Positions 2,168 to 35,522 of a stretch of 64,000 bases of DNA are shown in pieces. The notes beneath the pieces are model-generated. The model was not told the origin of the DNA, ran no database searches, and was given only the letters and a program-made list of their open reading frames with translations. Where the stretch lies: NCBI GenBank assembly GCA_036004685.1, contig DASYRE010000043.1, positions 1 to 64,000 of the forward strand, read 5' to 3'. This stretch comes from Candidatus Polarisedimenticolia bacterium. Lineage in GTDB: Bacteria > Acidobacteriota > Polarisedimenticolia > Gp22-AA2 > AA152. Position numbers and translations under genes: made by a program. Each line of letters opens with the position of its first letter. Within the stretch, counting starts at the first letter, position 1.

Positions 2168-3778
<1,611 letters not shown>

Positions 3779-3833: not shown

Positions 3834-4547
3834 TCAGGAGGCCCGGAGCGCCTGGCGCGTGTCCGGGATCTGGAGCCAGATCTTCTTGTGGAAGAAGCTG
3901 TTCTCGTGCCCGATGAGGAAGCGCGTGAGCAGATCGTCTTCGCCGATCAGCAGGCGGAGACGCTGCGGCGCGCCGGGCAGGTCGAACACCAGGCTGGTGC
4001 TGTACGCCTCGCCGGGACGCAAGGGGCGATCCAGGGGGATGCCGGTCATCCGGTCGGAGGCCAGGGCCCGGAGTCCTTCCCGGGAGGGATGGTAGACGCG
4101 CCCGCGCTCGTCCTGCACCACGACCCGCCGCGGGTTCGGCCAGAGCGCCGGGCTGCCGCGGCGCGGTGAGATCGTCTTCTCGTCGAACCAGGTCCGGACC
4201 GTCACCACGTAAAAGACTCCGTGAGCCGGCGTTCGGTGCGCTCCCGAGCCGAGCGCCGAGGCGGTCGAGACGCTGGCCACCGAATAGGCCAGGTGGCAGT
4301 CGAGCTCGCAAAGATACTTCTGCTGGCCCGGCTCCAGGATCCTTTCCCGGCTGGTCAGGGAATGGGTGAGCAGGGCGCCCCAGTACAGGACGAGGACGAC
4401 GATCATTCCCTCCAGGATCCGCCGCGCCCGCCGCCTGCCGCCCCGGCCGAGCGACCAGAGAAGGGCGGCGGTAGCGGCCGCGAGAACCGCCACGGTGAGC
4501 AGAAAGAGCAGGACGATGGCGTAGGAATTCTCCGGCATGAGCGCCAT
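3834..4547 (-). CDS. Uncharacterised two-helix membrane protein with a beta-rich outer domain
   Basis: I do not recognise a named family. The protein (237 residues) has two hydrophobic helices at roughly residues 8-33 and 44-62 separated by a short arginine-rich loop. A soluble domain of about 165 residues follows with phrases such as [18 protein letters not shown] and [18 protein letters not shown] that look like a beta-sandwich. The chosen ATG (4547) has a GGGGAG ribosome-binding site five bases upstream; an in-frame codon 14 residues earlier lacks one. It lies just downstream of the tRNA-Glu terminator on the same strand, so it needs its own promoter. Its stop is 55 bases before the carboxylase operon start. 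Confidence 0.7.
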
Positions 4548-4585
4548 GAAACTCCCCTTTTCCGCGGGACCGGCCGGCGGACGCC

Positions 4586-4622
4586 CCAAAAAGAAGAGGC
4601 CCGCTTCTCAGACGCGGGCCTC
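4586..4622 (-). terminator. Rho-independent terminator after tRNA-Glu
   Basis: A perfect 9-bp inverted repeat, GAGGCCCGC/GCGGGCCTC, spans 4596-4622 with a 9-base loop. On the minus strand the hairpin is followed by TTCTTTTT. It lies 9 bases after the tRNA-Glu gene and would end transcripts coming from the tRNA-Gln/tRNA-Glu side. Confidence 0.85.
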
Positions 4623-4631
4623 GAACAAGGC

Positions 4632-4706
4632 TGGTAGCGCTACGGGGATTCGAACCCCGGTTTGATGGCTGAGAACCACCCGTCCTAACCCCTAGACGAT
4701 AGCGCC
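4632..4706 (-). tRNA. tRNA-Glu (CTC)
   Basis: Cloverleaf on the minus strand: acceptor arm GGCGCTA/TAGCGCT, T arm CGGGG-TTCGAAT-CCCCG, and anticodon stem GGTGG/CCATC with loop TTCTCAG, so the anticodon is CTC. The CCA end is encoded. It has its own promoter upstream and a terminator immediately downstream, and follows tRNA-Gln and gltX on the same strand. Confidence 0.95.
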
Positions 4707-4747
4707 TCCCAGGACGCCCCGAAGGATCTTCCCTCCGAGCCGCCAAA

Positions 4748-4777
4748 AGTCTACCGACGCGACGCGAAAGCTGTCAA
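4748..4777 (-). promoter_or_regulatory. Sigma70-type promoter of tRNA-Glu
   Basis: On the minus strand TTGACA (4777-4772) and TAGACT (4753-4748) are separated by 18 bases and point to tRNA-Glu, whose 5' end lies about 42 bases downstream. Confidence 0.75.
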
Positions 4778-4822
4778 GAGACGGGGCCCGCGGAGACGCT
4801 CCGCCGGCGCCTATTAATAAGG

Positions 4823-4896
4823 TGGATCCGGGACAGGGATTCGAACCCCGATACCATGGTCCAGAGCCATGTGTCCTACCATTGGACGATCCCGGA
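4823..4896 (-). tRNA. tRNA-Gln (CTG)
   Basis: Minus-strand cloverleaf: acceptor TCCGGGA/TCCCGGA, T arm with GTTCGAATC, anticodon stem CATGG/CCATG around loop CTCTGGA, giving anticodon CTG. CCA is encoded. It sits between gltX and tRNA-Glu. Confidence 0.95.
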
Positions 4897-4907
4897 TCGG
4901 AGCGGGG

Positions 4908-4937
4908 ATTCTAGCCAATGCTCCCGCGGGGTGTCAA
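4908..4937 (-). promoter_or_regulatory. Sigma70-type promoter of tRNA-Gln
   Basis: On the minus strand TTGACA (4937-4932), an 18-base spacer and TAGAAT (4913-4908) end 11 bases before the tRNA-Gln 5' end. It lies in the gltX-tRNA-Gln gap, so the tRNAs can be made independently of gltX. Confidence 0.8.
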
Positions 4938-5019
4938 CAAAACCGGTCCTCCCGTGGTGGATCGAGTATCGCGCCGACCTCCCCCGGCTCCGGGGCGGAA
5001 GGGGCGCCGGCTTCGCCGC

Positions 5020-6462
5020 TCAGCACCGGTCGCCGGCGAGATGACTTAGGAGCCGATCGATGCGCGCCAGGGAGCGATCGCGGCCGATGAGAACCAGGAC
5101 GGTGAAGATCCCCGGGGAGACGGCTTGCCCCGTGAGGGCGACGCGCAGCGGATGAATGAGCTTCGCCGCCGCCACCCCAAGGCGCTCGGCCGTTTTCCGC
5201 AGCGCCTCCTCCGTCGAGGGCTCGTCGAAGGGCGACACCGCGGCGAGCGCTTCCTTCAACGCCGAGATGCGTTGGGCGGTTTCCGGATCCTTGAGGTGCT
5301 TGGCGACCGCGTCGGGATTGTATGCCCAGCTCTCGCTGAGGAAGACGGCGCTGTCGCGGGACAGATCGCTCAGCTTTCGCGACCGGGGCTTGAGCATCTC
5401 CAGGACCTTCTCGAACCACTCCTGCCTCTCCTTCTCCAGGGAAGGATCCCACCCTCCGGCCCGCTCGAGATCGTCGCGGATCGCCTCGCGGATCGCCGCC
5501 GCCGGCATGGCGTTGATGTACTGGCTGTTGAGCCATTCAAGCTTCTGCTCGTCGAAGACCGCCCCCTTTTTCCCGACGCCGTCGAAGGAGAACAGGCGAA
5601 TCAGGTCTTCGCGAAGCAGGTACTCGCGACCGTCGCCGGGCGACCATCCCAGAAGGGCCAGGAAATTGAACAGCGCCTCCGGCAGATAGCCGGCCTCGCG
5701 GTACTCGGTCACCGCCACCGCGCCGTGCCGCTTGCTCAGCCGCTTCTTGTCCGGCCCCAGGATCAGGGGAAGGTGCGCGAAGGTCGGGATCGGCTGCTCG
5801 AGCGCCTGGTAGAGGAGGATCTGCTTGGGCGTGTTGCTCAGGTGATCGTCGCCGCGGATGACGTCGGTGATCTTCATCTCGACGTCGTCGGCCACGACGG
5901 AAAGATGGTAGGTCGGCGTGCCGTCGGAGCGCGCCAGGACGAAGTCCTCGATCGTCTCGTTGGCGAACGAGGTCTCGCCATGGACCCGGTCGTCCCACCG
6001 GGTGCTGCCTTCGGGGACCCGGAACCTCAGGCAGTGGGCTTCGCCGGCGACGGCGCGCCGCCGCGCTTCCTCGGCCGGAAGTCCCAGGCAGACGCGATCG
6101 TATTTCCAGGCGGCGCCGCGCCGCTCCGCTTCCTCCCGGCGCCCCCGGATCGCCTCCGGATCGCAGAAGCAGGCGTAGGCCTTGCCGCTTTCGTGGAGCT
6201 TCAGCGCCATCGACCGATGCAAGCCGCGGCGCTGCGACTGGTAGAAGGGCCCTTCGTCCCAGTCGAGCCCGAGCCAGCGCATTCCGTCGAGAATCGCCTC
6301 GGTCATCTCCTCGCGAGAGCGCTCGACGTCGGTGTCCTCGATCCGGAGGATGAAAGTGCCGCCGCGGCCGCGGGCGAAGAGCCAGTTGAAGAGCGCCGTC
6401 CGCGCCCCTCCCACATGCAGGTACCCCGTGGGACTCGGGGCGAAACGGACCCGCAGCGTCAC
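5020..6462 (-). CDS. gltX: Glutamyl-tRNA synthetase
   Basis: Class I aminoacyl-tRNA synthetase that charges tRNA-Glu with glutamate. The 480-residue protein starts with the HIGH-equivalent segment PSPTGYLHVG (residues 10-19) and has the KMSKS-equivalent KRLSKRHG at 241-248. A CFC pair near residue 100 and a later Cys fit the zinc-binding insertion. The start is GTG 6462, whose GTGA overlaps the pgi stop, so it is translationally coupled to rpiB-pgi. Two of its candidate tRNA substrates, tRNA-Gln and tRNA-Glu, lie directly downstream on the same strand. Whether it also charges tRNA-Gln, as non-discriminating enzymes do, cannot be told from these motifs. Confidence 0.97.
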   Translation of the reverse strand: MTLRVRFAPSPTGYLHVGGARTALFNWLFARGRGGTFILRIEDTDVERSREEMTEAILDGMRWLGLDWDEGPFYQSQRRGLHRSMALKLHESGKAYACFCDPEAIRGRREEAERRGAAWKYDRVCLGLPAEEARRRAVAGEAHCLRFRVPEGSTRWDDRVHGETSFANETIEDFVLARSDGTPTYHLSVVADDVEMKITDVIRGDDHLSNTPKQILLYQALEQPIPTFAHLPLILGPDKKRLSKRHGAVAVTEYREAGYLPEALFNFLALLGWSPGDGREYLLREDLIRLFSFDGVGKKGAVFDEQKLEWLNSQYINAMPAAAIREAIRDDLERAGGWDPSLEKERQEWFEKVLEMLKPRSRKLSDLSRDSAVFLSESWAYNPDAVAKHLKDPETAQRISALKEALAAVSPFDEPSTEEALRKTAERLGVAAAKLIHPLRVALTGQAVSPGIFTVLVLIGRDRSLARIDRLLSHLAGDRC

Positions 6463-8144
6463 AACGCCTTCTCCACCTGCTCGGCGAGCGACGCCAGGCC
6501 CGCCTCCACCTCCCTGAGCCGGACCCGCAGCGCCGGGCGGCCGTGACGGCGCAGCGCCCGGAAGTCCCCCAGGGCCTGGGCCTGCTCGAGGATGGAGAAC
6601 CCGAACGGCTTGCCGGGAATCGCCGCCTCCTCGCCGCCTTCCGCCACGATCTGCAGGAAGACGCCGCGCGGCGGGCCGCCCTTATGAAGCTGCCCCGTGG
6701 AATGGAGGTAGCGAGGCCCGTAGCCCAAGGTGGTGGCGGTCTTCCGGGTTTGCCGGACGGCGTCCCGAAGCCGTCCCAGCGGCCGCTCCAGAGCTTCGCG
6801 CGTCGGCAGATAAGCCTGCAGGGCGAAGTAATCGCCCGGCCGGAGCGCTTCGAGAAACGAGCGGAGGATCGCCCGGGGACTTCCCCCTCCTTTTTCGCCG
6901 TAGAACGTGGCGACCTCGTCGCCCCCCAATGGCTCTTCTTCCTGGAACGACCCGGTCTTCACGAATTCTTCCAGCAGGGCCCGGGTGTTGTCCTTGCTTT
7001 CCTGAACGTTGGGCTCGTCGAACGGATCGACCCCCAGGATCGACCCGGCGACAGCGGTGGCCAGCTCCCAGCGCAGGAACTCCGCCCCCAGGTCGCACGG
7101 CGCCGCCACGGGGATCCGCACGACGGGATGCCCGGCCTCCTCCAGGGCGCGAATCCGGCGGCCCCAATCCTCGGCGACCCTCTCCGGCTCGAGGACCACG
7201 AAGAGCCGGTCCTCGCCGTAGCTCTCCGGATCGCCCGGCGGCTCGCCGGCGACCGGGATCAGGCCCTTCCCTTCCTTCCCGGTGCTCTCCGCGACCAGCT
7301 GCTCCGCCCAAATCGCGAAGCTGTCCAGGGGCGGAGGACCGAGAATCGTCAGCTTGTCGCGGCCGGCGAGCGCCGCCTCCCCGAGGATCGCCCCGAGGAT
7401 CATCCCGGGGCAGCGCTCGGGGGGGCTGTCGGCCGCCGAGAGCTTCAGCATCTCGCGCGCCCGGTCGAGGATTCCCTCCGCGTCCAGCCCCGCGAGCGCC
7501 GCAGGGGCCAGCCCGAAGAGCGAAAGGGCCGAATACCGGCCGCCTATGTCCGCCGGGTTCAGGAACACCTCCCGGTACCCGGCGCTCCGGCCCAGCTTCT
7601 CGAGCGGCGTCCCGGGGTCGGTGATGGCGGCGAAGTGGCGCCCCGCGCCGTCAATGCCGGCGGAGCGGAGGTAGGCGTCGAACCGCCTCTGAAAGCACTC
7701 CGTCTCGATCGTCGTCCCGCTCTTGCTGGAGACGACGAAGAACGACTTCCCCGGATCCAGATCCCGCTCGAGATCGAGAATGGAGGCGGGATCGGTGGAA
7801 TCGAGGACCCGGAGACGCGCCGCTCCCGGCGGCGGCGGAAAAACGCGGCTCAGCACTTCCGGGCAGAGGCTCGATCCTCCCATCCCCAGGACGACGACGT
7901 CGCGCACCCCCTCCCCTCGGAGCGTCTCCCCCAGACGCTGGGCCCGCGGAATCTCCCCGCCCATCGCCTCGACGACGGGGAGCCAGCCGAGACGGTTGCG
8001 GATCACGGCCGCGTGGGCCGGATCGCTCTTCCAAAGCGTCGAGTCCTTTTTCCAGATTCTCTCGAGGAATCGATCGTATTGCAGCCGGCTCAGCCGGCTC
8101 CGGACGGCTCTCTCAAGCGCGCCGAGCTTCGTGAGGGGACTCAA
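6459..8144 (-). CDS. pgi: Glucose-6-phosphate isomerase (type usually fused to transaldolase)
   Basis: Interconverts glucose-6-phosphate and fructose-6-phosphate. Two sugar-isomerase (SIS) domains are visible: VVVLGMGGSSLCPEVLSRVF, then SSKSGTTIETE and later the C-terminal region ending GYGPRYLHSTGQLHKGG. The sequence resembles the isomerase half of the bifunctional transaldolase/isomerase proteins rather than classic Pgi, but here it stands alone. I choose a TTG start at 8144 (about 561 residues) because it overlaps the rpiB stop as TTGA and has a GGGAGGGA site six bases upstream. The upstream extension of the reading frame lies inside rpiB and is arginine-rich shadow. The stop overlaps the gltX start. 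Confidence 0.9.
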   Translation of the reverse strand: MSPLTKLGALERAVRSRLSRLQYDRFLERIWKKDSTLWKSDPAHAAVIRNRLGWLPVVEAMGGEIPRAQRLGETLRGEGVRDVVVLGMGGSSLCPEVLSRVFPPPPGAARLRVLDSTDPASILDLERDLDPGKSFFVVSSKSGTTIETECFQRRFDAYLRSAGIDGAGRHFAAITDPGTPLEKLGRSAGYREVFLNPADIGGRYSALSLFGLAPAALAGLDAEGILDRAREMLKLSAADSPPERCPGMILGAILGEAALAGRDKLTILGPPPLDSFAIWAEQLVAESTGKEGKGLIPVAGEPPGDPESYGEDRLFVVLEPERVAEDWGRRIRALEEAGHPVVRIPVAAPCDLGAEFLRWELATAVAGSILGVDPFDEPNVQESKDNTRALLEEFVKTGSFQEEEPLGGDEVATFYGEKGGGSPRAILRSFLEALRPGDYFALQAYLPTREALERPLGRLRDAVRQTRKTATTLGYGPRYLHSTGQLHKGGPPRGVFLQIVAEGGEEAAIPGKPFGFSILEQAQALGDFRALRRHGRPALRVRLREVEAGLASLAEQVEKAL

Positions 8145-22457: not shown

Positions 22458-22463
22458 GGCTTG

Positions 22464-23936
22464 ATGCCGTCCTTCCGCGACGCGTCGGTCAAGACCAAGC
22501 TGGTCCTCGCGAGCGTGCTCGGCTGCGGCGCCGCTCTCTTGATTGCGGGCGCCGTGATTACGAGCTATGACCTCATGGGGCTGCGCCGCTCCCTGGTGCA
22601 AAGGATGACGGTCCAGGCGGACATCGTGGGGGCCAACTGCCTCTCGGCCCTTCTTTTCAACGATTCGAAGTCCGCGGCGGACACCCTCGCGGCCTTGAAG
22701 GCCGACCCGACGGTTCTCGCCGCGGGACTCTACACGCCGGACCGACGGCTGTTCGCGACTTATTCCAGCAACCCATCGAACGCACTGGCGCCGACGGGTG
22801 AAGGACCCATCGCCGCCGCTCAAGGGCATCGCCTCGAGAAGGGACGGCTCCTGCTATCCAGGAGCATTCTCTTCGACCGGGAGGCGATCGGCACGTTGGT
22901 CATCGTCTCGGATCTCGGCGAGATTTCCGCAAAGATGACGCGCGACGTCGCGATCGTCGCGGGGGTTCTCGTCGTGTCCCTCCTGGTCGCCCTGCTCATC
23001 TCATCGAGGCTGCAGCGTCACATCTCGGGACCCATGCTTCACCTTGCGGAGACCGCCCGAAGGATCTCCTTGGAAAAGGACTTCTCGGTGCGGGCCTCCG
23101 GTGAGAGCCGCAACGAGATCGGGACCCTCGTCACCGCATTCAACGAGATGCTCGAAGAGATCCGTAAACGAGAAACCGCGCTCCGGGCCGCCCAGGACGA
23201 GCTCGAGCGGCGGGTCGCCGATCGGACCGCGCAGCTCGAAGCGGCGAATCGCGAGCTGGAGGCGTTCAGCTATTCCGTGTCGCACGACCTTCGCGCCCCT
23301 CTGCGGAGCATCGACGGGTTCAGCCAGGCGCTTCTCGAAGACAGCGCCGACAAGCTGGATGACCAGGGCAAGCAGCACCTCCAGCGGACGCGTGCCGCCG
23401 CGAAGCGGATGGGGCAGTTGATCGACGACCTCTTGAGCCTGTCGCGCTTGACCCGGGGCGAGTTGAAGCGTGGAAGGGTCGACCTCACGGAGCTTGCCAG
23501 AGCGACCGCAGCGGAAATCTTTCGCAGCGAGCCGGAGCGCAAGGTGGAGCTGAAGGTGGCGGAGGGACTGTCGGCGCAGGCGGACGGTCAGCTTCTGAAT
23601 GTGGTGTTCGAGAACCTCCTCCGGAATGCCTGGAAATTCACCCGCAAGCGACAGGTCGCGCACATCGAGTTCGGCTGCCTGCACCAGGATGGCACACGTG
23701 TCTTTTTCCTGCGGGACGACGGCGTGGGGTTCGAGATGGCTTATGCGGACAAGCTCTTCGGCGCCTTTCAACGCCTGCACTCCACGAAAGAGTTCGAAGG
23801 GACGGGGATCGGGCTCGCCACGGTGGCCCGCATCGTCCGCCGGCACGGCGGGAAGGTCTGGGCGGAGGCTGAAATCGAAAAGGGCGCCACGTTCTATTTC
23901 ACGCTCGAGGGGAGCCTTTCAAGGAGCGCAGCATGA
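22464..23936 (+). CDS. Membrane sensor histidine kinase with CHASE8-like periplasmic domain and HAMP
   Basis: About 490 residues. Transmembrane helix 1 (about 14-36) and helix 2 (about 160-182) bracket a periplasmic domain whose start, RMTVQADIVGANCLSALLFND, resembles the CHASE8 domain of YfiN-type proteins. HAMP follows (RLQRHISGPMLHLAETARRI), then a coiled coil and a phytochrome-like HisKA box SYSVSHDLRAPLRSIDGFS. The ATPase has VVFENLLRNAWKFT, DDGVGFEM and FEGTGIGLATVARIV. The start is ATG 22464, seven bases after the yfiR-like stop. The stop overlaps the next ATG as ATGA. Likely controlled by the YfiR-like partner. Confidence 0.87.
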   Translation: MPSFRDASVKTKLVLASVLGCGAALLIAGAVITSYDLMGLRRSLVQRMTVQADIVGANCLSALLFNDSKSAADTLAALKADPTVLAAGLYTPDRRLFATYSSNPSNALAPTGEGPIAAAQGHRLEKGRLLLSRSILFDREAIGTLVIVSDLGEISAKMTRDVAIVAGVLVVSLLVALLISSRLQRHISGPMLHLAETARRISLEKDFSVRASGESRNEIGTLVTAFNEMLEEIRKRETALRAAQDELERRVADRTAQLEAANRELEAFSYSVSHDLRAPLRSIDGFSQALLEDSADKLDDQGKQHLQRTRAAAKRMGQLIDDLLSLSRLTRGELKRGRVDLTELARATAAEIFRSEPERKVELKVAEGLSAQADGQLLNVVFENLLRNAWKFTRKRQVAHIEFGCLHQDGTRVFFLRDDGVGFEMAYADKLFGAFQRLHSTKEFEGTGIGLATVARIVRRHGGKVWAEAEIEKGATFYFTLEGSLSRSAA

Positions 23937-24370
23937 GGGAAAAGATGATCCTGCTCGTCGAAGACAACCCCGACGACGAAGACCTGACGATCCGGGCGCT
24001 TCGGAAGAACAACATCGCCAATGAAATCGTCGTCGCCCACGACGGCGTCGAAGCCCTCGACTACCTCTTTGGCAGGGGACGATACGCGGGGCGGGATACG
24101 CAGGAGCTTCCCGAGGTGGTCCTGCTGGATCTGAAACTGCCGAAGGTCGACGGGCTGGAAGTGCTCCGCCAGCTCCGGCAGGAAGAGGCGACCAAGCGCC
24201 TCCCGGTCGTGATCCTCACGTCCTCGGAGGAGGAGCAGGATCGATTGAGGGGCTACAACCTCGGGGCGAACAGCTACGTGCGCAAGCCGGTGGACTTCGT
24301 TGAATTCACCGAGGGGGTCCGGCAGCTCGGCCTGTACTGGCTCGTCTTGAACGTTCCGCCGCCACGGTAG
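23933..24370 (+). CDS. Single-domain response regulator, Rcp1 type
   Basis: 145-residue receiver only: LLVEDNPDDEDLTIRALRKN, phosphoacceptor Asp in VVLLDLKLPKVDGLEVL, VILTSSEEEQDRLRGYNLGA and Lys in SYVRKPVDF. This is the form that pairs with phytochrome-like kinases, matching the kinase directly upstream. Its ATG overlaps the kinase stop. It has no DNA-binding domain, so it works by protein contact or as a phosphorelay shuttle to the next hybrid kinase. Confidence 0.93.
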   Translation: MREKMILLVEDNPDDEDLTIRALRKNNIANEIVVAHDGVEALDYLFGRGRYAGRDTQELPEVVLLDLKLPKVDGLEVLRQLRQEEATKRLPVVILTSSEEEQDRLRGYNLGANSYVRKPVDFVEFTEGVRQLGLYWLVLNVPPPR

Positions 24371-24385
24371 GAGCTGAGGCCGACG

Positions 24386-25936
24386 ATGGGCACTCCGATC
24401 CGCGTTCTCATCGTGGAAGACTGTGAAGACGACGCCGACCTCCTCGTGCGGGAGCTGCGCCGGGGCGGCTACGAGCCGATCTGGGAGCGCGTCGACACGC
24501 CCGAGGCCATGGCGGCGGCGGTGTCGGGACAGTCCTGGGACATCGTCATCTCCGACTACTCGATGCCCCGCTTCAGCGCTCCGGATGCCCTTGCCTTGAC
24601 GCTGGAGCGAAAGCTGAACGTGCCCTTCATCATTGTCTCGGGAACGGTCGGCGAGGAAGTGGCGGTCGAGGCGATGCGCGCGGGGGCCCACGACTACATT
24701 TTGAAGGGTCGTCTGACCCGGCTGTGCACGGCGGTCGCGAGAGAGCTCCGAGATTCGGAGATCCGTCGCGCGCACGTGCAGTCCCAGGAGAAGCTCCGCG
24801 AAACGCGGGAGCGGCTGGACAGGGCCACGCAGCAGCTCGTCCAGGCGGAGAAGATGACCGCCCTCGGGGAGCTGGTCGCGGGAGTCGCTCATGAGGTCAA
24901 TAATCCTCTCGCGAGCATCATGGGCTACACGCAACTCGTCCTGATGCGGGAGCTTTCGGCGGACGTCCGGAGGCGTCTCGAAACCGTCTTTTCGGAAGCC
25001 GAGCGCGCCGGAAAAATCGTCCGCAACCTCCTGACCTTCGCCCGGAAACAGCCTCCCGAGCGGAAGTACCTGGGTCTCAACGGAATCATCGAGAAGACTC
25101 TCGAGCTCAAGGCGTACAGCCTGCGGAGACAGAAGATCGAGGTGGAGGTGGCCACCGCGCCCGATCTGCCGATGACGATGCTCGATTTTCAACAGATTCA
25201 GCAGGTCCTGCTCAATCTGTTGAACAACTCCGAACAGGCCATGACCGAGGCGGGCCGCGGGCAAAGAATTCGGATCGGGACGGCAAAGCTGGGGAAGACG
25301 ATCGAGATGCGCATCTCCGACGACGGCCCCGGGATTCCTCCCGACATTCAGGCTCGCATCTTCGAACCGTTTTTCACGACCAAGAAGGAAGGGAAAGGCA
25401 CGGGCCTGGGGCTGTCGCTCTGCTATGGGATCATCCAAGAGCACGGGGGGACGATCCGGGTGGAAAGCACTCCGGGTCAGGGGACGATCTTTGTCATCGA
25501 GCTGCCCATCGTGGAGGAAAAAGGCCCGGCCGGAAGCGCCGGCCCGGAAACTTCTCCAGAGTCAGGACCCAGCCTGAGGATCCTCATCGTCGATGACGAG
25601 CCCAATGTGCAAAACATGCTGGCCGAGCTGCTGGGAGGCAGGGGCTACAAGGTGGACACGGCCTCCGACGTCCCGGAGGCTCTCCGGAAGATCGAGACGA
25701 ACGGTCACAGCTTGATCATCACCGACATGAACATGCCGCGCGGCACCGGGAAAGACGTCTATCAGGCCGTTCTTGAAAAGTCCCCAAGCTTGGCGCGGCG
25801 CGTGATCTTTACCACCGGCATGGGGATAACCGCCGAGACGCAGAGCTTCGTGCGTGAGACGGGCAACGAGATGATCCTCAAGCCTTTCAAGATCGAGGAC
25901 ATCGAACGGGCCATCGCCGCAGCCATGAGCAATTGA
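24386..25936 (+). CDS. REC-kinase-REC hybrid histidine kinase
   Basis: 516 residues: N-terminal receiver (about 6-122, Asp in VISDYSMPRF), coiled coil, HisKA box GVAHEVNNPLASIMGYTQL, ATPase ([40 protein letters not shown]), an acidic linker, and a C-terminal receiver (about 395-516, Asp in LIITDMNMPRGTG). It begins 15 bases after the Rcp1-type regulator and probably completes a multi-step phosphorelay from the receptor/YfiR/kinase set. No output domain is visible in the operon, so the final target must be elsewhere. Confidence 0.9.
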   Translation: MGTPIRVLIVEDCEDDADLLVRELRRGGYEPIWERVDTPEAMAAAVSGQSWDIVISDYSMPRFSAPDALALTLERKLNVPFIIVSGTVGEEVAVEAMRAGAHDYILKGRLTRLCTAVARELRDSEIRRAHVQSQEKLRETRERLDRATQQLVQAEKMTALGELVAGVAHEVNNPLASIMGYTQLVLMRELSADVRRRLETVFSEAERAGKIVRNLLTFARKQPPERKYLGLNGIIEKTLELKAYSLRRQKIEVEVATAPDLPMTMLDFQQIQQVLLNLLNNSEQAMTEAGRGQRIRIGTAKLGKTIEMRISDDGPGIPPDIQARIFEPFFTTKKEGKGTGLGLSLCYGIIQEHGGTIRVESTPGQGTIFVIELPIVEEKGPAGSAGPETSPESGPSLRILIVDDEPNVQNMLAELLGGRGYKVDTASDVPEALRKIETNGHSLIITDMNMPRGTGKDVYQAVLEKSPSLARRVIFTTGMGITAETQSFVRETGNEMILKPFKIEDIERAIAAAMSN

Positions 25937-26429: not shown

Positions 26430-29400
26430 TTACCTCCAATCACCGGCGGCGACGAAGGCGCCCCAGAAGTACGGGTGGGCGAGGGCGCCCGCCCGGCGCC
26501 GGTTCTCAAGAACGCGCAGCGACGCGGCACGGGTCGCTTCGGCCGTCGTCCCGCCCGCGAGACGGGCGCGGTATAGCTCGAGAATCCACTCCCGTGCGTC
26601 GTGATCCCCGACGGCCCACAAGCTCATGACGAGGGTCCTCGCGCCCGCAACCTGGAAGGCGCGTCGCAGCCCGAGCACGCCCTCTCCGCGGAGGGCCGGC
26701 CCGACACCGGTCTGACAGCCCGACAGGACGACCCACTCCACACCTCTCAGATCGAGCGCGGCGATCTCGTCCGACGTCAGGATGCCGTCCTCGGCCTCCG
26801 CGTGTCTGGCGATTGCGCTCCGATTGACATCGGCCAGCGCCAGCCCGAAAACGGGGAAGGCACTGCCGCTCGCCTCGGGACCGCCGGCGACTTTGTCACC
26901 ATGTGTCGCCGGGAGAGTTGGGCAGACGTCGTCGAGAGAGAATCCGTGGGTTGCCAAATGAATGACCCGGCGGCCGGCGGCGCGCTTTTTGAATTCGCTT
27001 TCGCCGCCTTGGCGCCCGGTCAGCACGAGGGCGACGCCTCGCGACGGGCTCCCGGGAGGGTCAAGGGACTCGTGCGCGACCCACAGCGCCGCGATCTCCT
27101 CGACCTCGGCTTTGGAGCCGGGCAACGGGAGAAACGTCGGAGCGCCCAACCCGGCGCAGTCCGACAGGCGAATCCCCGCGCGGGAAGCCACGCTCGTTTC
27201 AGCCACTGGCCGATCGCCGAAGTCGAGCCCTCCCAGGGCGAGCAGACCGCCGGGGCGGGCTATTCCGGCAAGGTTCCGATCACCCGCGGAGAGCGCCAAG
27301 ACATCCCGTTCGGCCGACAGGTAATGCAGGACGGGCCCCGTCTCGAGAAGATAACCGTCCTGCCCGACCGGGAGCGTGGCGAAGTTGAGAAGGTGCAGAT
27401 CGCCATCGGGCACCAGCAATACGGCGCGAGCGCCGCAGATCTTCCCCGCGAGCGGGTCCCAGACGAGCCGCCTCAGCTTCTCGCCGACCTGCCGGCAGGT
27501 CGCGAGCGATGCGACGCTCTTAGGCGGCGCGCCGACTTCACCGCGGAAGCGCCGGACGAGATCGTCGATCACGCCGGAAGACCCCAGCGTGGCCATGGCG
27601 ATGCCGCCGCGGCCAGGCGGCAGCACGAAGGCGACGTAGCGGGTCTCGGCCGCGTGATGCCCCTGGCGAGGCCTTTCGAACCGCGCGTAGGCCACGAGCG
27701 CCGTGGAGGGGGGCAGAGCCCGCCGGATATCCTCGAGGCGGGCCGAACGCGCCTGGAGATCCCGCCTGGCCGCGGCGCTGCGGACCGCCACATCGCGCTC
27801 GGCCCGGTCGGTCGCGGCCCGGGCCCGGCGAAGGAGGTCCCGGTACTCGCCGGCGGTCCCCGCGCCGGGACCGGTGGCGACGAGGGCGGCGAAACGCGCC
27901 CTGGCGTCGTCCCATGCATGCACCCATGGTGACAGGCTCGGCTCGGCCGCATCGAGGAGGAAGCGGTGCCGTGCGGCCACCTCGTCCAGGATCACGGCCC
28001 GTGACCGGATGAGCGCCTCCCAGGCGCGGCGCGCCCGCGGCGCGGTCCCGTGGCCGTCCCCGCCGCCCAACCCTGCCGCGAACGCCACGTCGAGCCCCGA
28101 CCTCTGCATCGCCTTGTAGTCGAGGGCCTGGCGATCGGACAGATAATGGGCCGTTCGCGCGATGTGGGCGCGCAGGATCTCCTCCGCCCGCAGCGCACCG
28201 TCCAGAGCCCTCTCTTCGTTCCCGGTCCTGTAGTCCAGGTTCGCGAGGTAGATCAGGCTCCGGGCGAAGAACGGGTGTTCAGTGCCGAGCCTGTTCTTGC
28301 GGATCTCGAGGGCCCGCTCGAGGAGCGGGCGGGCCTTCTCCGGTTGATCCAGCTCGATGAGCGAGCGCGCCAAGCCGGTGAGCGTAATGGCTATCAGCGG
28401 ATGTTCGGGACCGAGCGCGGCCTCGCGAATACGCAAGGCGCGTTCGAACAGCGGAACAGCCGCTGCCGCCTCTCCCACGTCGAGCAGGAGGCCTCCTAGA
28501 TTGGAGAGGCTGACGGCCACCGGCGGTCGATCCGGCCCCAGCTTCGCCTCACGGATCGCGAGGGCGCGCTCGAAGGCCTGACGCGCGGCAGCGAGGTCTC
28601 CGAGCTCCTGCAGCACGCCGCCCAGGTTGTCCAGCACCAGGGCGTAGAGCGGGTGGTCCTTGCCGAGTCCCTCACGGGCGCGGTCGAGGCCGCGCTCGAA
28701 AATCGCCCGCGCGTTCTCCAAATCGCCCAGATCATGCAGGATGGTGCCGTAGTTGCTCAAAAAACCTACGACGAAGGATGGTTTGTTCGTCGTCAATCGC
28801 TCGAGGACCGCGAGGCCTCTCTCGTAGAAGGTGCGCGCCTTCGTGTAATCGCCCGTTTCGGCATTGGTATTCGCCAGTCCTGTAAGGAGCTTGACGGTCC
28901 TCTGGTCGTCCTGGACGTGGGCCTGCTCGCGCAGGGCGAGCGCCCGCTCGAGCGCGGCCCGGGATGAGGCATAGTCGCCCCTCATGAAGTACACGTCCCC
29001 GAGGGTCTGGAGGCTCGCCGCGAGGGCGGGATCGGAGTCATTCAGATGGCTCGTCTGGATGGCGTGGGCTCGCTGAGCCCATGTGAGGGTGCCGGGCTCG
29101 GACGCTTTGCCGGCGGGCAGCACGGCGGTGACGAGCGCCATGAGCGCGTCGGCGACCGCGAGGGAATCCGGCCCCGACTCGGCCTCGGCGCGGGCGAGGA
29201 TCAGCCGCCCGTGACTCTCCGCGTCCGCGTAGCGGCCCTGGTCCACCAGGTCGTAGACGCCCGGCAGGCCGGCGACGGACGCTTCCTCGGCTGGCATCGA
29301 AGGCGACGCGGCGGGACCGCTCCACAGGAGCGCCGCCACCGCAGCGGCCGGCGCGAGAGTCCGCAGGCGCGAGCGGCGCCGACGACGATCGCCGCGCCGG

Positions 29401-29498
29401 GCCCGGCTGCTGTCGCAGCTACGGCACCGTCCGGTCCTCTCCCGCGGTCGGGGGGCCGACCCGGAATGGGTACCGATAGATACGACGTTCACCGGCAT
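26430..29498 (-). CDS. TPR-CHAT protein (caspase-like peptidase with tetratricopeptide repeats)
   Basis: About 1022 residues. Around ten TPR units (about 70-470; for example GDYASSRAALERALALREQA, LGDLENARAIFERGLDRARE) are followed by a helical linker and a C-terminal CHAT domain (about 650-1020). The catalytic His is in RVIHLATHGFS and the catalytic Cys in VVLSGCQTGVG. A basic stretch and the hydrophobic segment LAPAAAVAALLWSGPAA near residues 45-65 look like a signal peptide or anchor. I choose ATG 29498 with GAGGA upstream, overlapping the anti-sigma gene by 80 bases. The placement after an ECF sigma and anti-sigma pair suggests proteolytic control or output of that switch. The substrate is unknown. 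Confidence 0.85.
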   Translation of the reverse strand: MPVNVVSIGTHSGSAPRPRERTGRCRSCDSSRARRGDRRRRRSRLRTLAPAAAVAALLWSGPAASPSMPAEEASVAGLPGVYDLVDQGRYADAESHGRLILARAEAESGPDSLAVADALMALVTAVLPAGKASEPGTLTWAQRAHAIQTSHLNDSDPALAASLQTLGDVYFMRGDYASSRAALERALALREQAHVQDDQRTVKLLTGLANTNAETGDYTKARTFYERGLAVLERLTTNKPSFVVGFLSNYGTILHDLGDLENARAIFERGLDRAREGLGKDHPLYALVLDNLGGVLQELGDLAAARQAFERALAIREAKLGPDRPPVAVSLSNLGGLLLDVGEAAAAVPLFERALRIREAALGPEHPLIAITLTGLARSLIELDQPEKARPLLERALEIRKNRLGTEHPFFARSLIYLANLDYRTGNEERALDGALRAEEILRAHIARTAHYLSDRQALDYKAMQRSGLDVAFAAGLGGGDGHGTAPRARRAWEALIRSRAVILDEVAARHRFLLDAAEPSLSPWVHAWDDARARFAALVATGPGAGTAGEYRDLLRRARAATDRAERDVAVRSAAARRDLQARSARLEDIRRALPPSTALVAYARFERPRQGHHAAETRYVAFVLPPGRGGIAMATLGSSGVIDDLVRRFRGEVGAPPKSVASLATCRQVGEKLRRLVWDPLAGKICGARAVLLVPDGDLHLLNFATLPVGQDGYLLETGPVLHYLSAERDVLALSAGDRNLAGIARPGGLLALGGLDFGDRPVAETSVASRAGIRLSDCAGLGAPTFLPLPGSKAEVEEIAALWVAHESLDPPGSPSRGVALVLTGRQGGESEFKKRAAGRRVIHLATHGFSLDDVCPTLPATHGDKVAGGPEASGSAFPVFGLALADVNRSAIARHAEAEDGILTSDEIAALDLRGVEWVVLSGCQTGVGPALRGEGVLGLRRAFQVAGARTLVMSLWAVGDHDAREWILELYRARLAGGTTAEATRAASLRVLENRRRAGALAHPYFWGAFVAAGDWR

Positions 29499-30156
29499 GG
29501 TCCGTCCTCGAGACGACGACCTCGTGCTCTCCGGCCGCCCGCAGCAGGCCCGCCGGCACCGTCCACGAGATGCGGCCCAGCGCATCAGGCGGACCGACCG
29601 AGTCGGCGCGGGCGAGAACTTGTCCGCCGGCATCCACCAGCTCGGCCGAGTACCTGGCCTCCGGGCTGACCGGGACGAGGAATGCAAAGGTCAGCGAACG
29701 GTCGTTGAGGCGCGACGGCAGAGTCGGCGCATGGCCGTCACCCCGGTCGGGGCCGTTCCCGAGATCCAGGAAGTACGGCTCGGCGAATCGATCGGGCGGT
29801 CCGCCACCCGGCCTCAAGCGGGGCCAGAGGCCGGCCGCGATCAGGAGGATCACGGCGGCGGCCGCGAGCCAGGAGGCCCGCCTGACGGTGATGGACCGGA
29901 CTGCCACGCGTTCCGGTGCAGACCGCGCGGATTCCCCTGAGGCCGCGGGCGCCACGGCCTCCGCCCCATGCGCCTCGACGGCCCGGGCCAGGAGCAGGAG
30001 AACATTCAATTCGCGCCGGCAATCGGCGCACCGGTCGAGATGGGCGCGCACGCCCGCCGCCTCGTCCTCCTCCAGGCTGCCGTTGACGTAAAGGGGAAGA
30101 AGCCCCTGCGCGGACCGGCATCCAGGATGGACCAGGAAACGCGTTCCGAGCCTCAC
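29419..30156 (-). CDS. Zinc-finger anti-sigma factor with one transmembrane helix
   Basis: 245 residues. The N-terminal cytoplasmic part has the HxxxCxxC zinc-binding anti-sigma motif in RAHLDRCADCRREL. One transmembrane helix (WLAAAAVILLIAAGLWP, about 95-111) leads to a periplasmic beta-rich domain of about 130 residues with no family I can name (YSAELVDAGGQVLARAD, HEVVVSRTDHAGERRIYRYP). Its GTG start overlaps the sigma gene stop as GTGA, so the two are made in step. It should hold the ECF factor inactive at the membrane. Confidence 0.88.
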   Translation of the reverse strand: MRLGTRFLVHPGCRSAQGLLPLYVNGSLEEDEAAGVRAHLDRCADCRRELNVLLLLARAVEAHGAEAVAPAASGESARSAPERVAVRSITVRRASWLAAAAVILLIAAGLWPRLRPGGGPPDRFAEPYFLDLGNGPDRGDGHAPTLPSRLNDRSLTFAFLVPVSPEARYSAELVDAGGQVLARADSVGPPDALGRISWTVPAGLLRAAGEHEVVVSRTDHAGERRIYRYPFRVGPPTAGEDRTVP

Positions 30157-30719
30157 GTTCGATCCTTGGTTGCCGACATCAGCTCGGACCAGCGCCGCAA
30201 CAGGCGCGACCGGCTGCGGAAGACCCTCGCCTTCACGGTTCCCTCTCTGACACCGAGCAGGTCCGCCACCTCGGCATACGAAAGGTGCTGCGCGAAGACG
30301 AGGTCGATGAGGCGCCGATCTCGCTCCGGCAGGACCTCGAGCAGCTTCGACAGGAGATCCCGGTTCATTACTCCCGCCGGCTCATCGAGCGCCGGCATGG
30401 CCGGGCCGTCGGCCGCGAGGCGGCCGCCCCTCTCCCGATGCCGATAGGCCCGGCGCGCGAGGTCGATGGCGGCGTTGCGGCTGATTCGGTGCACATAGGT
30501 GCGCAGCGACGACTCCCCGGCGAACCGGCCGCCACGAAGGTTCGTGACGATACGCAGCCGGATCTCCTGTTTGAGGTCCTCCCACTCCTCGCGCAGCGAC
30601 CGGAAGCCGTCTCGCAGGGCGAATTCGATCCAGCCATCCACGACACGCGCGGCTTCGCGATCCCCTCGCAGGAAGGCCTCGATCAGACGCGCCTGATCCG
30701 CGTCGGGCGGCATCGACAC
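30153..30719 (-). CDS. ECF-family RNA polymerase sigma factor
   Basis: 188 residues with region 2 (EWEDLKQEIRLRIVTNL, LRTYVHRISRNAAIDLARR) and region 4 (LPERDRRLIDLVFAQHLSYA, EVADLLGVREGTVKARVFRS). The start GTG 30719 follows GGAGGAG by about seven bases; an ATG two codons inside is the alternative. It is the first gene of the sigma/anti-sigma/TPR-CHAT operon. Target promoters are not known; the operon itself is a usual first target of such factors. Confidence 0.93.
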   Translation of the reverse strand: MSMPPDADQARLIEAFLRGDREAARVVDGWIEFALRDGFRSLREEWEDLKQEIRLRIVTNLRGGRFAGESSLRTYVHRISRNAAIDLARRAYRHRERGGRLAADGPAMPALDEPAGVMNRDLLSKLLEVLPERDRRLIDLVFAQHLSYAEVADLLGVREGTVKARVFRSRSRLLRRWSELMSATKDRT

Positions 30720-30812: not shown

Positions 30813-33800
30813 TCAGAGATTCACGCGCACTTCCACTGAAAACGCGCCTTCCCAGCCGCCCTGGTTGCGGGCGGCCACGCGATAGTAGTACGTCCCTCCA
30901 GGAGTCAGGTTCTGATCGAGGTACGTGAGGTTGTTCGCCACCCCGATGCGCGCATAGGGACCTCCTGGGGCCAGACTGCGGTAGACGACGTAGTCCACGA
31001 CGTCCGGCTCGGGGCTCGCGCTCCAGTTGAGGCGGGCGCTCTTGTTCGTGGCGCGCGCGCCGGTCAGGTTGGCGACGGCCACCGGGAAGAGCTTCGCCGT
31101 CGCCGCATAAAGGTCGGTCGCGCCGCGCCAATCTTGCCAGACGATGCGATCTCCGGAAACCGCCGGCTGGTACTGGGCCACCTCCCCATTCGACACCTGA
31201 TAGCTGAGCCCGGCCGAGAGGTCGCGGGCGCGGATGTTCCAGTTGGAAAAGTAGCCTCCTCCAAAGTCGGTCCGCTGGGTCCAGACCACGAGGTCGCCCG
31301 ATAGGTCGAGGTCGATGCGCATCTCTCCCGGTCCCGCCGGAACAACGCTCTCAAGACCCGTGCCCAGGTCGTGGACGAACACGGTCGCTCCATCCATCCC
31401 GATCCAGGCTGCCCGCGTTCCCGAAAGTGCGGGATCCCGACCGTCCCCGATGACGAGGTCCTGCCCGGTCGTGAGATCGCGCAGGTGGATCCCTCCAGCT
31501 CCGGCATAGACGATCCGATCACCGTCGATATCGTACTGACTCGCGGTGCCGAGCGGCGTCACCTGCCGCGTGGTGAGATCCATCAGGCTCAGCTCGCCGG
31601 AACCGTACGGGTTGTTAAAATCGTAGTACGAGGCCGGCGCCTTGAACAGCACGCGATTGCCCCCGATGACCGGAAACACATAGTGCTGGGTGAAAGCGGG
31701 GTAGGGCGTCAGAAGCTCCTCCTGGCCCGTGATCATCGTCGCCGTGTCGAAGCGATAAATGTCCAGCTTGCCGTTGCGCGTGTCCTGCCAGACGATCTGG
31801 GTTCCCGAGTTGGTCGGGTTGAGCTGATTGTTCGGGTTGGCGGTGAGGACCGCGTCGAAAGAGATCGCCCTCTCCACTCCGGTCGCGAAGTCGTAGGCAT
31901 AGATGTCGCCGTTCGGGAAAGTCAGCTCGTTGCGGTGGTCTTCCCAAACGACGATGCCGCCCGACATCGACGGATTGAGCTGTTGCCCGGCGGCGGTAAT
32001 CAGCGGGCTCTCGGCGAACGAGGTCCGCGTCGTGATGCCGAGCTGGGCGGCGTGCCGGTTGTTGGCCTCGGTGAGCTCCGCGATCGTGCCGGCGCGATCG
32101 GCGAAGCCGACGAGAGCGCGCACGCCCGCGCTGGGGAAAGTGGGGTAGGCCGTGAAGGTCTGCGACGTTCCAGCCGGCAGTGAGGCCACCGACCAGGCGC
32201 GGAGCAGAACGCCCCCGAGCGCTGGGTCGCCGTCGAACAACTCCACGCTCACATTCTGGGTTCCGACCAATCCGAGGTTCTCCACTTTGACGTCGACGGC
32301 CGCCGGGCCGCCGACCGCCGCCACCGGCTTCTGAGGGGCGACCTGGACGCGTAATTCCGGCATGGTCTGGGCGTTCCCGGCGGCATTGACCGCAAGCTCC
32401 GCGTTGACCCGCCCGTACCCCGAATAGACGTCGAAGCCGGGGGCGCCGAGATCGACGGCCGTCCCCTCTACGATCGCGCGCACCAGGCCGTTGCTCGCCG
32501 CCGGCTGCCGCGACAGGACCAGGGCCGCCACTCCCGCGGCGTGCGGCGATGCCATGCTCGTTCCACGCAGACGGGAATAGCCGCCGAATATCTGCAGGGA
32601 CAGGATGTTGACGTAAGTCTCCTGCGTGTCGAGCGGATCGAAGCTGCCGCCTCCCGGCGCAGCCACGTCGATCACCTCGCCCCAGCTGGAGAAGTCGGAC
32701 TTGACGTCGTTCTGGTCGGTCGATGCGACCGCCATCACCTCCGGGTGCGTCGCCGGGGAGAACCCGGCGGCATCGGTGTTGCTGTTCCCGGCCGCCGCCA
32801 CCAGGACGGCCCCGAGGGCGTAGGCATCGGCCACCGCGTCGGCGGTCACCTGGTTCGCGGGTCCCCCCCAGCTCATGTTGACGACGTCGGCCCCGTTCTC
32901 GGCGGCATAGATGATGCTCGCCGCTCCGTCCGCCGTCGAGCCAAAACCCTGATCGTCCAGGAACTTGATCGGCATGATCCGCGCCTGGTGCGCCACTCCG
33001 ACGATGCCGAGCGCATTGTTCCCTTCAGCCGCGACGGTCCCCGAAACGTGGGTCCCGTGGTAGTGGTCGTCGGCGGGGTCGTTGTCGAGATTTTGGAAGT
33101 CCCAACCGCGCAAGTCGTCTACGTACCCATTGTGATCGTCGTCCCGGCCGTTGAAGTCGGAGGCGTCGACGACGCCGTTATGATTCCGATCCTCCCCCGG
33201 GTTCACCCAGACGCGGTTCCGGATGTCCTCGTGGTTGTAGTCGAGGCCGGTGTCGATCACGGCGACGACGACACCCTGGCCGGTCGCCTGACTCCATGCC
33301 ACGTCGGCACGGATCTTCTTCACCCCCCAGAGGTCCGCATAGGGTTGGCCCCAAGATCCCGAGGACGAGTAGTAGGGATCGTTCACGATGCTGGCCTGCA
33401 TGAGGAAATTGGGCTCGGCGTACTCGATCCCGGGGTCCTGCCGCAGATCGTGTACCGCGCGGAGGACGTCGGCTTGGCCGCCGAGCGTGACCCTATAGAT
33501 CCGGTCGAGTCCCGGCTGGCGCGACAGACCGGGCGCTCTCGCGGCCCGCGCCGGGTTGCGCCGGTCAATCTCGGCCCGATCGAGGAGGAGGGGGAAGAGC
33601 CGGTCGGTCCGGGTCCCGGGATGGCGGGTCTCCAGGGCGCGCAGCGCGGCGGAGGCGGCCGGTTCGACCCCTTCCTTCAGCTTGACGATCAGCTCGCCCG
33701 CTACGAATTTCGGGCCGTCGCCCGGCACAATATCCTTGTTTTTGTTCGGCCCGATGCCCCCCAGCGTCGAGATGGGAAGGACCAGCAAGAGCGGAAGGAA

Positions 33801-33833
33801 CACCAGGACCCACAGCCGCGACTTCGATCGCAT
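30813..33833 (-). CDS. Secreted subtilisin-like (S8) serine protease with beta-propeller and fibronectin-type tail
   Basis: 1006 residues. Signal peptide (about 1-25) and a propeptide with GELIVKLKEG precede the S8 domain. Catalytic Asp194 is in VAVIDTGLDYNHED, His259 in DHYHGTHVSG and Ser426 in RGTSMASPHAAG, with oxyanion Asn350. Two calcium-loop-like segments, DRNHNGVVDASD and DDDHNGYVDD, interrupt the domain near 215-240. A CARDB-like domain (about 475-600), TolB-like propeller blades (about 610-915, repeats such as IVWQDTRNGKLDIYR) and a C-terminal fibronectin type III domain follow. Start ATG 33833 has AGGAGGG six bases upstream. It acts outside the cell; monocistronic. Confidence 0.93.
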   Translation of the reverse strand: MRSKSRLWVLVFLPLLLVLPISTLGGIGPNKNKDIVPGDGPKFVAGELIVKLKEGVEPAASAALRALETRHPGTRTDRLFPLLLDRAEIDRRNPARAARAPGLSRQPGLDRIYRVTLGGQADVLRAVHDLRQDPGIEYAEPNFLMQASIVNDPYYSSSGSWGQPYADLWGVKKIRADVAWSQATGQGVVVAVIDTGLDYNHEDIRNRVWVNPGEDRNHNGVVDASDFNGRDDDHNGYVDDLRGWDFQNLDNDPADDHYHGTHVSGTVAAEGNNALGIVGVAHQARIMPIKFLDDQGFGSTADGAASIIYAAENGADVVNMSWGGPANQVTADAVADAYALGAVLVAAAGNSNTDAAGFSPATHPEVMAVASTDQNDVKSDFSSWGEVIDVAAPGGGSFDPLDTQETYVNILSLQIFGGYSRLRGTSMASPHAAGVAALVLSRQPAASNGLVRAIVEGTAVDLGAPGFDVYSGYGRVNAELAVNAAGNAQTMPELRVQVAPQKPVAAVGGPAAVDVKVENLGLVGTQNVSVELFDGDPALGGVLLRAWSVASLPAGTSQTFTAYPTFPSAGVRALVGFADRAGTIAELTEANNRHAAQLGITTRTSFAESPLITAAGQQLNPSMSGGIVVWEDHRNELTFPNGDIYAYDFATGVERAISFDAVLTANPNNQLNPTNSGTQIVWQDTRNGKLDIYRFDTATMITGQEELLTPYPAFTQHYVFPVIGGNRVLFKAPASYYDFNNPYGSGELSLMDLTTRQVTPLGTASQYDIDGDRIVYAGAGGIHLRDLTTGQDLVIGDGRDPALSGTRAAWIGMDGATVFVHDLGTGLESVVPAGPGEMRIDLDLSGDLVVWTQRTDFGGGYFSNWNIRARDLSAGLSYQVSNGEVAQYQPAVSGDRIVWQDWRGATDLYAATAKLFPVAVANLTGARATNKSARLNWSASPEPDVVDYVVYRSLAPGGPYARIGVANNLTYLDQNLTPGGTYYYRVAARNQGGWEGAFSVEVRVNL

Positions 33834-34135
33834 CACACCCTCCTGTCGCATCGGTGTTCGAGACGGGGGCGGACCGCCCCGATGCCAGCACGGTCGGATT
33901 GACCGGGCCGAAGGTTACGACCGAACGCGAAGTTTCTTTGGGAAACGACCGTAAAATGTCGCCGCGCCAGGCCTCTTTCAATCGGCACGCGGCTGGGTCC
34001 TTTCGAGATCCTCTCTCCGATGGCTTTCCCGAGGGAGCACGGCAATGGCCTTGGGCCATGCGGCTTAGGGCCGTTCCCTGCCTAAGAGGAGGACCTCGAG
34101 CGTGTCGGCTAGTTCATGGATTGAGAATTCGGATT

Positions 34136-34310: not shown

Positions 34311-35459
34311 TCAGTCACTTGAGGATTGAGCACCCTTGCCAGATCCTACGGAAGGAGGGGCATCTCTGTCCACCGAGTGGCTACCGATGTGGACCCACGC
34401 GGGGAGAGGCATGAGAAAGCGATCGGCGAGAGCGTTGACGTACGGCTCGTAGCTCCGGCGCAGGTCTGACAGGCGCCGCGCCATCTCCTTGGAGTCGGAA
34501 GGGGGCTGGCCAGCTTCGGAGAGCAAATCGAAGATCCGTGCAAGATCCGAGGACGAGAGACGATCCGGGGACGGCGTCCGCGGATCGAGGTGAAAGACCC
34601 TGGCCAGGTCGATGACCGCGTGCCGGACCATCGCAAACGTAGCGCCCGCCTGCCAGTCTTCACCATCCCGGGCGCCGGCCATGCGCAGCGCGCAAGCATC
34701 GAGGATCGTCGTCAGGGCCCCGAGCCACGATTGATTCGCGTGCTGGGAGCGGAAATAGGCCAGGACGGGGTACGAAAGGTGGCTCTCCATCAGCTCCGCC
34801 GTCCAACGCTCCCACTCGCGCAGAAACTGGTCCAAGTGATGGAGATGGTCCCGGCCGTGGCGACGCAGCAACTCGCCGACACTCGGGGGAGAGCCAGCCC
34901 TGAGATCAAGCAGCGTAATCGGCACCTCGCGCTTGGAAAAGGCGCTGTAGAGAACGGGAAAGTACCCGATTACCAAAGCGAGAAAGCCGAAGCCGAGCCC
35001 GGACTCCAGAACGATCAGGCCGCGCGCCAGCGGCCCGCGCGGCGTCACATCGCCCAGCCCGAGGGTAAAGAAGGTCGTGCCGCTCAGATAGAGATAGGTG
35101 CCCAAGGAGGGCGGTCCGCCGGGCGTGTTCATGGTCGTGCCGAGAGACCAGTGCAGCACTCCGAACCCGAGCATCAGGTTCGTGCCCCACATCGCCAGAA
35201 GGAACAGGACCGAGAGGGGTCCATAGATGCCGAGGAAGGACTCGCGTCGCGCGCCCGGGCCGATCCGACGCGCGACGGCCGCCCAGGGCGTCCAGGTCAG
35301 CCGGTAGAACAAACGCGCCAGGCGCCAGCGGCGGGCTACTCGCCGGGGCAGGACGATCGTCTCGAAAGCGTCTCCGAGAACGATACCGATCAAGGCGATC
35401 GCGAGCAGAGCAACAGCGCAACGCATGAACATCGTCTCCAGCGGTGAGATCTCCTGCAT
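34311..35459 (-). CDS. Two-helix potassium-channel-like membrane protein
   Basis: About 382 residues. Hydrophobic helix near 12-32, a second near 80-105, then the pore region TTFFTLGLGDVTPRG with a TxGxGD-type selectivity filter, followed by the inner helix LIVLESGLGFGFLALVIGYF. The C-terminal 200 residues are cytoplasmic and helical, with no RCK/TrkA motif that I recognise. The start is uncertain: ATG 35459 is used, a GTG three codons upstream also fits. It lies 63 bases after the S9 peptidase on the same strand and may share its transcript. Confidence 0.78.
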   Translation of the reverse strand: MQEISPLETMFMRCAVALLAIALIGIVLGDAFETIVLPRRVARRWRLARLFYRLTWTPWAAVARRIGPGARRESFLGIYGPLSVLFLLAMWGTNLMLGFGVLHWSLGTTMNTPGGPPSLGTYLYLSGTTFFTLGLGDVTPRGPLARGLIVLESGLGFGFLALVIGYFPVLYSAFSKREVPITLLDLRAGSPPSVGELLRRHGRDHLHHLDQFLREWERWTAELMESHLSYPVLAYFRSQHANQSWLGALTTILDACALRMAGARDGEDWQAGATFAMVRHAVIDLARVFHLDPRTPSPDRLSSSDLARIFDLLSEAGQPPSDSKEMARRLSDLRRSYEPYVNALADRFLMPLPAWVHIGSHSVDRDAPPSVGSGKGAQSSSD

Positions 35460-35522
35460 CCCTCTCACGACGCCGTCCTGGCCGAGACGGGCCTGCGATC
35501 CCTTCCGGAGGCGCTCTGGCGG

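Follow-up and report, generated by a model that had tools for sequence, protein, structure and literature searches.

A recurrent trio of ECF sigma factor, transmembrane anti-sigma factor and TPR-CHAT peptidase, with a candidate cleavage site at a juxtamembrane arginine

Background

What might a CHAT protease cut when it is encoded not beside a CRISPR effector but beside a sigma factor and its membrane-bound inhibitor? The question is raised by a 64,000-nucleotide stretch, called the window below, of contig DASYRE010000043.1 (positions 1 to 64,000; assembly GCA_036004685.1) from the acidobacterial Candidatus Polarisedimenticolia bacterium, in which genes for an extracytoplasmic function (ECF) sigma factor, a transmembrane zf-HC2 anti-sigma factor and a TPR-CHAT peptidase follow one another (Table 1). 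Apart from those of CRISPR systems, few bacterial CHAT proteases are known to have an established function or substrate. We find that the trio is real and recurrent, and we give an even chance to the reading that it is a module for envelope signalling, in which an exported CHAT protein would act as the arginine-specific site-1 protease of the anti-sigma factor and the sigma factor would be freed by regulated intramembrane proteolysis.

Results and discussion

The trio is conserved across genomes

Relatives of the window's CHAT protein were first sought in 60 genomes; all CHAT domains were then listed in the 41 genomes that share the window's class, many of them incomplete, and their flanks were fetched. 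Gene calls were our own, and transmembrane segments and signal peptides were called by simple rules. A CHAT gene was counted as linked if a sigma gene followed by an open reading frame (ORF) with a transmembrane segment lay within 1.5 kb of it. By this rule 56 of 111 CHAT genes are linked, and four more have such a pair farther off, versus none of the 34 control genes with a length of 2 kb or more that lie on 400 kb of DNA from four of the surveyed genomes (Fisher p = 3e-9). The zf-HC2 genes number only about 2-17 per genome. Of the three CHAT genes in the genome from which the window comes, two are linked, the second, on contig C24, also having a sigma and an anti-sigma gene upstream. A scan of named genomes placed the trio at further loci in Acidobacteriota (L109, L112, L123, L126, L129 and L130) and in other phyla, namely Aminicenantes (L110), Eisenbacteria (L113), Krumholzibacteriota (L119), Zixibacteria (L136 and L160) and Desulfobacteraceae (L150). 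The sequence-only reading of the window had proposed a genome search for a conserved trio, and co-occurrence is indeed conserved, within the class and beyond it. Its description of one overlapping operon holds in the window but is not the general arrangement, many trios being convergent or divergent. Orientation varies from locus to locus between co-directional, convergent and divergent, and therefore adjacency, rather than a single operon, is what is conserved.

At one locus in Zixibacteria (L160, 4469-15141) three tandem CHAT genes lie directly behind a single sigma/anti-sigma pair. At L095/L157, L104, L121 and L159 a CHAT gene lies near an ECF sigma gene that precedes a long ORF in which a transmembrane segment stands distally, possibly a second CHAT-sigma arrangement; by the look of their sequences, these ORFs may encode Ser/Thr kinases.

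A peptidase with predicted export and intact catalytic residues

Most linked CHAT proteins begin like secreted proteins: 46 of 57 have a signal-peptide-like start, several with lipoboxes, versus 1 of 47 sigma ORFs under the same simple rule. Clear signal peptides or lipoboxes are present in the homologues at L067, L068 (a lipobox), L069 and L081. Unlinked CHAT proteins are also often exported by this rule (30 of 43), and the third CHAT protein of the window's genome, encoded at a contig end (C40), has a lipoprotein-type signal peptide. In the window's protein the hydrophobic stretch LAPAAAVAALLW, which resembles a signal peptide, follows an Arg-rich N-terminus.

The sequence-only reading had described the catalytic His and Cys as intact, and both stand in good context in the window and are invariant in all 72 linked CHAT proteins examined. 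By fold and by these two residues the protein is a CHAT peptidase, and proteolytic activity is predicted. In fold its model comes nearest to DdvA, Csx29 and separase, and the matches also include Arg-gingipain. Separase requires a P1 arginine and recognises it through a conserved Asp, Asp2070 in the human enzyme (PMC10317155), which is Cys+41 when counted from Cys2029, a position that we read from C2029S in the title of 9hm7.

An arginine retained across exchanged outer domains

The proposed target is predicted from its sequence to inhibit the sigma factor: an HxxxCxxC motif and a transmembrane helix, encoded directly downstream of the sigma gene, identify it as a membrane-bound zf-HC2 protein, while the sigma factor, with Sigma70 regions 2 and 4 only in about 190 residues, is of the ECF type. 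Hydropathy and the structure model point to an RseA-type topology, a single pass with the sigma-binding side in and the outer domain out. The model (predicted local distance difference test score, pLDDT, 78) has a small beta sandwich as its outer domain. Linked anti-sigma factors carry four unrelated types of outer domain, which are Ig-like, FN3-like, TPR and DUF4384, the last two assigned by Pfam and the FN3-like type read from its sequence pattern. On a tree of the 72 linked CHAT proteins there are at least 12 changes from one type of outer domain to another.

What stays is an arginine between the transmembrane helix and the outer fold. In family alignments it is present in 33 of 34 Ig-like, 24 of 24 FN3-like, 10 of 11 TPR and 3 of 3 DUF4384 proteins (70 of 72 in total); outer domains have therefore been exchanged while the arginine stayed. 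In the window it is R138, followed by G139, in a low-confidence loop (residues 131-140, pLDDT 61), and it is the only invariant column among 22 CHAT-linked anti-sigma factors that are 15-36% identical to the window's protein. In 66 of 70 cases it is followed by G, A, S, D or N; it is often preceded by L, V, Y or T, and prolines stand further upstream. Among the outer columns of the Ig family it ranks first in conservation; in FN3-like proteins its place is outside the fold, yet it is conserved as well as the core Trp. When linkers were shuffled and realigned, the best Arg column scored lower than the real one in each of the three families tested, although the FN3 null value of 0.71 arises at a column that had not been part of the shuffled stretch, and 0.91 was attained in one of the Ig shuffles. 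Profiles of the folds alone, made without the arginine, found six more anti-sigma factors, all six with an arginine in the linker; they also found three FN3 proteins that are not anti-sigma factors and that do not have it.

A short site recognised by one common partner would be expected to leave such a pattern, an arginine kept in front of unrelated, exchanged domains; the only partner gene that recurs on the outer side of the membrane is CHAT. The near-invariance of the residue in four unrelated outer-domain types gives a specific predicted cut site.

DUF4384 outer domains are carried by the linked anti-sigma factors at L150, L119 and L125. DUF4384 is often fused to caspase-like domains.

Proposed mechanism and alternatives

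The steps that we propose are as follows. The zf-HC2 domain would hold the ECF sigma factor at the inner face of the membrane, with the exported TPR-CHAT protein facing the outer part of the anti-sigma factor. The TPR superhelix, or a partner, would sense a signal; the TPRs, accessory domains and envelope ligands are candidates for what switches CHAT on. The Cys/His dyad would then cut behind the arginine next to the membrane, which in the window means R138|G139. The outer domain would be shed, whereupon the usual site-2 protease would degrade the membrane stub and release the sigma factor. Cleavage, cut site, trigger and sigma release are what we infer. It is somewhat short of an even chance, in our estimate, that the trios form a large and so far undescribed class of switches for envelope stress. 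The neighbouring anti-sigma factor would have as its dedicated site-1 protease an exported TPR-CHAT peptidase, separase/caspase-like and specific for Arg; x-R|G/A/S would be the only fixed outer element, and the sensory domain would be freely exchanged.

The CHAT protein could instead be a co-sensor that does not cut, docked or gated by the Arg-Gly motif and controlling the access of another protease or the conformation of the anti-sigma factor. The nearest solved structure, DdvA, is an anti-sigma factor with a CHAT domain of its own, which may act in this way within one chain; a short motif common to unrelated outer domains suits binding as well as cutting, and the cut itself is a prediction. 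A pure binder would, however, have no need of the His and Cys that every linked CHAT protein retains, and the small residue at P1', like the flexible position, is in keeping with a cleavage site. We hold this role to be unlikely. It is also rather unlikely, in our view, that CHAT is an output of the system, a gene that the sigma factor turns on, together with S8 and M64 neighbours, as an envelope-stress effector while a general site-1 protease cuts at the arginine. Divergent and convergent layouts do give CHAT its own promoter, S8 subtilases adjoin the trio in the window and in L065, and other secreted proteins can take the third place with the arginine retained. Yet the targets of a sigma factor need not adjoin its anti-sigma gene so often, the 29 unlinked zf-HC2 anti-sigma factors of the same genomes have other outer regions, and a search of 13 convergent or divergent loci for an ECF-like promoter shared by sigma and CHAT genes, a weak test, found nothing above shuffled sequence. 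Finally, the linkage might be incidental, or the trace of a gene block that moved horizontally with no functional tie among its members. In favour of this, a sigma/anti-sigma pair is absent from the fetched flanks of half of the CHAT genes; given the enrichment, the spread over several phyla, the adjacency kept through changes of orientation and the arginine kept through repeated swaps of the outer domain, we regard this as highly improbable.

Several observations weigh against cleavage of the anti-sigma factor by CHAT at the arginine. The family alignments were made only after the arginine pattern had been noticed, and arginine is abundant in these proteins (8%). The pattern [LVYFTIM]R[GAS] occurs in 49 of 73 linked versus 11 of the 29 unlinked zf-HC2 anti-sigma factors (p=0.007), a modest difference, and across patterns the alignment-free enrichment over the same 29 proteins has p values of ~0.002-0.06. 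A de novo motif search (expectation maximization, width 6) of the segments after the transmembrane helix returned LRW, a core strand of the FN3 fold, and not the arginine motif; by itself, therefore, the arginine carries little information. The CHAT-linked anti-sigma factor at L221 has no such arginine. Conversely, at L214 an Ig-type anti-sigma factor with the arginine (LRGQG) and its sigma factor are accompanied by a secreted M64 (IgA-type) metallopeptidase (3171-6188) that replaces CHAT, and at L215 an FG-GAP protein takes the place of CHAT beside another Ig-type anti-sigma factor with the arginine; neither locus has a CHAT gene nearby. Linked loci include convergent trios, so CHAT need not be co-transcribed with the sigma gene. 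The invariant Asp965 of the CHAT protein, at Cys+37, lies near the spot equivalent to that of the separase Asp, which gives no assignment of an S1 pocket. Owing to the undue length of its Arg-rich n-region, the window's CHAT protein does not pass the simple signal-peptide rule, and it would have an atypical signal peptide; its export is therefore deduced from its relatives. The earlier suggestion that a hydrophobic segment near the N-terminus could place CHAT on the side of the outer domain is supported by the signal peptides of homologues.

Were the cleavage reading true, the whole CHAT family would gain a likely substrate, a predicted cut site defined by a single residue and a compartment, the periplasm. 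Proteolysis of the caspase/separase type would be a regular route of transmembrane signalling in Acidobacteriota and related phyla, and it would suggest how Csx29-Csx30 and DdvA could arise from, or alongside, ordinary pairs of protease and anti-sigma factor.

Comparison with known systems

DdvA, which we take to be from Myxococcus xanthus with DdvS as its sigma partner, is the best match of the window's CHAT protein in the Protein Data Bank (PDB), by fold and by profile. It is a transmembrane anti-sigma factor tied to a CHAT domain (PDB 8rot and 8rw5, where the molecule is named CHAT domain-containing protein). In DdvA, however, the CHAT domain is within the anti-sigma chain, whereas in the window and in the listed linked loci the two are separate genes, and the predicted exported protein lies beside an anti-sigma factor that, in the window, has its own Ig-like outer domain.

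The sequence-only reading had drawn a parallel with type III-E CRISPR systems. There, Csx29, Csx30 and CASP-sigma, of the Craspase system with Cas7-11, give an experimental precedent for a TPR-CHAT protein cutting a sigma inhibitor, in a cytosolic and RNA-guided setting (PMC10028731). The likeness holds as to fold, the His/Cys dyad and the genetic tie of a TPR-CHAT protein to an ECF sigma factor and its inhibitor, but it is one of analogy only, the nearest solved structure being DdvA. Csx30 is cut at residues 427-429, where no residue is essential (PMC10028731), whereas the trio has a predicted cut at a conserved arginine, a CHAT protein predicted to be exported and, as inhibitor, a zf-HC2 transmembrane protein. 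That no CRISPR gene accompanies the locus, as had been noted, agrees with our searches: RAMP/Cas7-11 (PF03787) has no match in the window's genome, and no short-spaced direct repeats of the CRISPR type were found in the window. We accordingly rejected the CHAT protein as a type III-E component.

In the ECF54 group, CHAT, subtilase and carboxypeptidase genes occur in the sigma neighbourhood and proteolytic control has been proposed, the group being described without an anti-sigma factor and its named example being actinobacterial (PMC8999054). CHAT and subtilase genes near a sigma gene are shared with the window, which differs in having a transmembrane anti-sigma factor. Like RseA-DegS-RseP, the trio has a single-pass anti-sigma factor with a domain in the periplasm, where the proposed site-1 protease would act; this protease, however, would be a cysteine peptidase of clan CD whose gene adjoins that of its target and which has a predicted Arg site, not a PDZ-regulated serine protease. 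The system is, then, a variant form of anti-sigma control by a protease, one in which the predicted cut site is concrete. The arrangement appears to be new: no description was found in a literature search, although work on ECF groups or on DdvA may mention it.

Layout of the locus and neighbouring genes

The three genes overlap at the coordinates of Table 1, as the sequence-only reading had it. The sigma stop and anti-sigma start share 4 bp (GTGA), and the most likely CHAT start, ATG 29498, sits inside the anti-sigma gene (80-bp overlap), preceded by GAGGA.

Table 1. Features of the locus in the window
Feature	Coordinates	Strand	Evidence or remark
ECF sigma factor, 188 aa, GTG start	30153..30719	minus	TIGR02937 3e-20, PF08281 (Sigma70_r4_2) 1.2e-13, PF04542 1.4e-5
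Single-pass transmembrane zf-HC2 anti-sigma factor, 245 aa	29419..30156	minus	zf-HC2 5.1e-10
HxxxCxxC zinc-binding motif of anti-sigma factor (HLDRCADC, residues 39-46)	30019..30042	minus	
Anti-sigma transmembrane helix, residues ~94-111	29824..29877	minus	hydropathy; helix 96-114 in model
Arg138 codon, juxtamembrane, predicted P1 of CHAT cleavage (LGNGPDR|GDG)	29743..29745	minus	
Anti-sigma Ig-like outer (periplasmic) domain	29422..29742	minus	
TPR-CHAT peptidase of 1022 aa (start ATG 29498), export predicted	26430..29498	minus	PF12770 2e-49 and TPRs
CHAT putative signal peptide, hydrophobic core	29322..29357	minus	
CHAT catalytic His851, in HLATHGF	26946..26948	minus	intact
CHAT catalytic Cys928, in LSGCQTG	26715..26717	minus	intact
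CHAT Asp965 (SLWxVxD), invariant, candidate S1-pocket acid	26604..26606	minus	
Secreted S8 subtilase upstream of sigma gene, possible fourth member	30813..33851	minus	

As a constant fourth gene the S8 subtilase was rejected, the window and L065 being the only loci where it adjoins the trio. In L065 it lies between the anti-sigma and CHAT genes (5199-7220), and its presence at these two loci recalls the CHAT and subtilase neighbourhood reported for ECF54. Downstream of the CHAT gene, on the opposite strand, are genes for a histidine kinase, a response regulator and a hybrid kinase beside a YfiR/HmsC-like (DUF4154) protein (window 22461-25936). Near the trio is also an ion-channel-like gene with two transmembrane segments (window 34311-35468), a homologue of which (L088, 1-411) is separated from the L088 trio by a few kb, suggesting some shared gene order.

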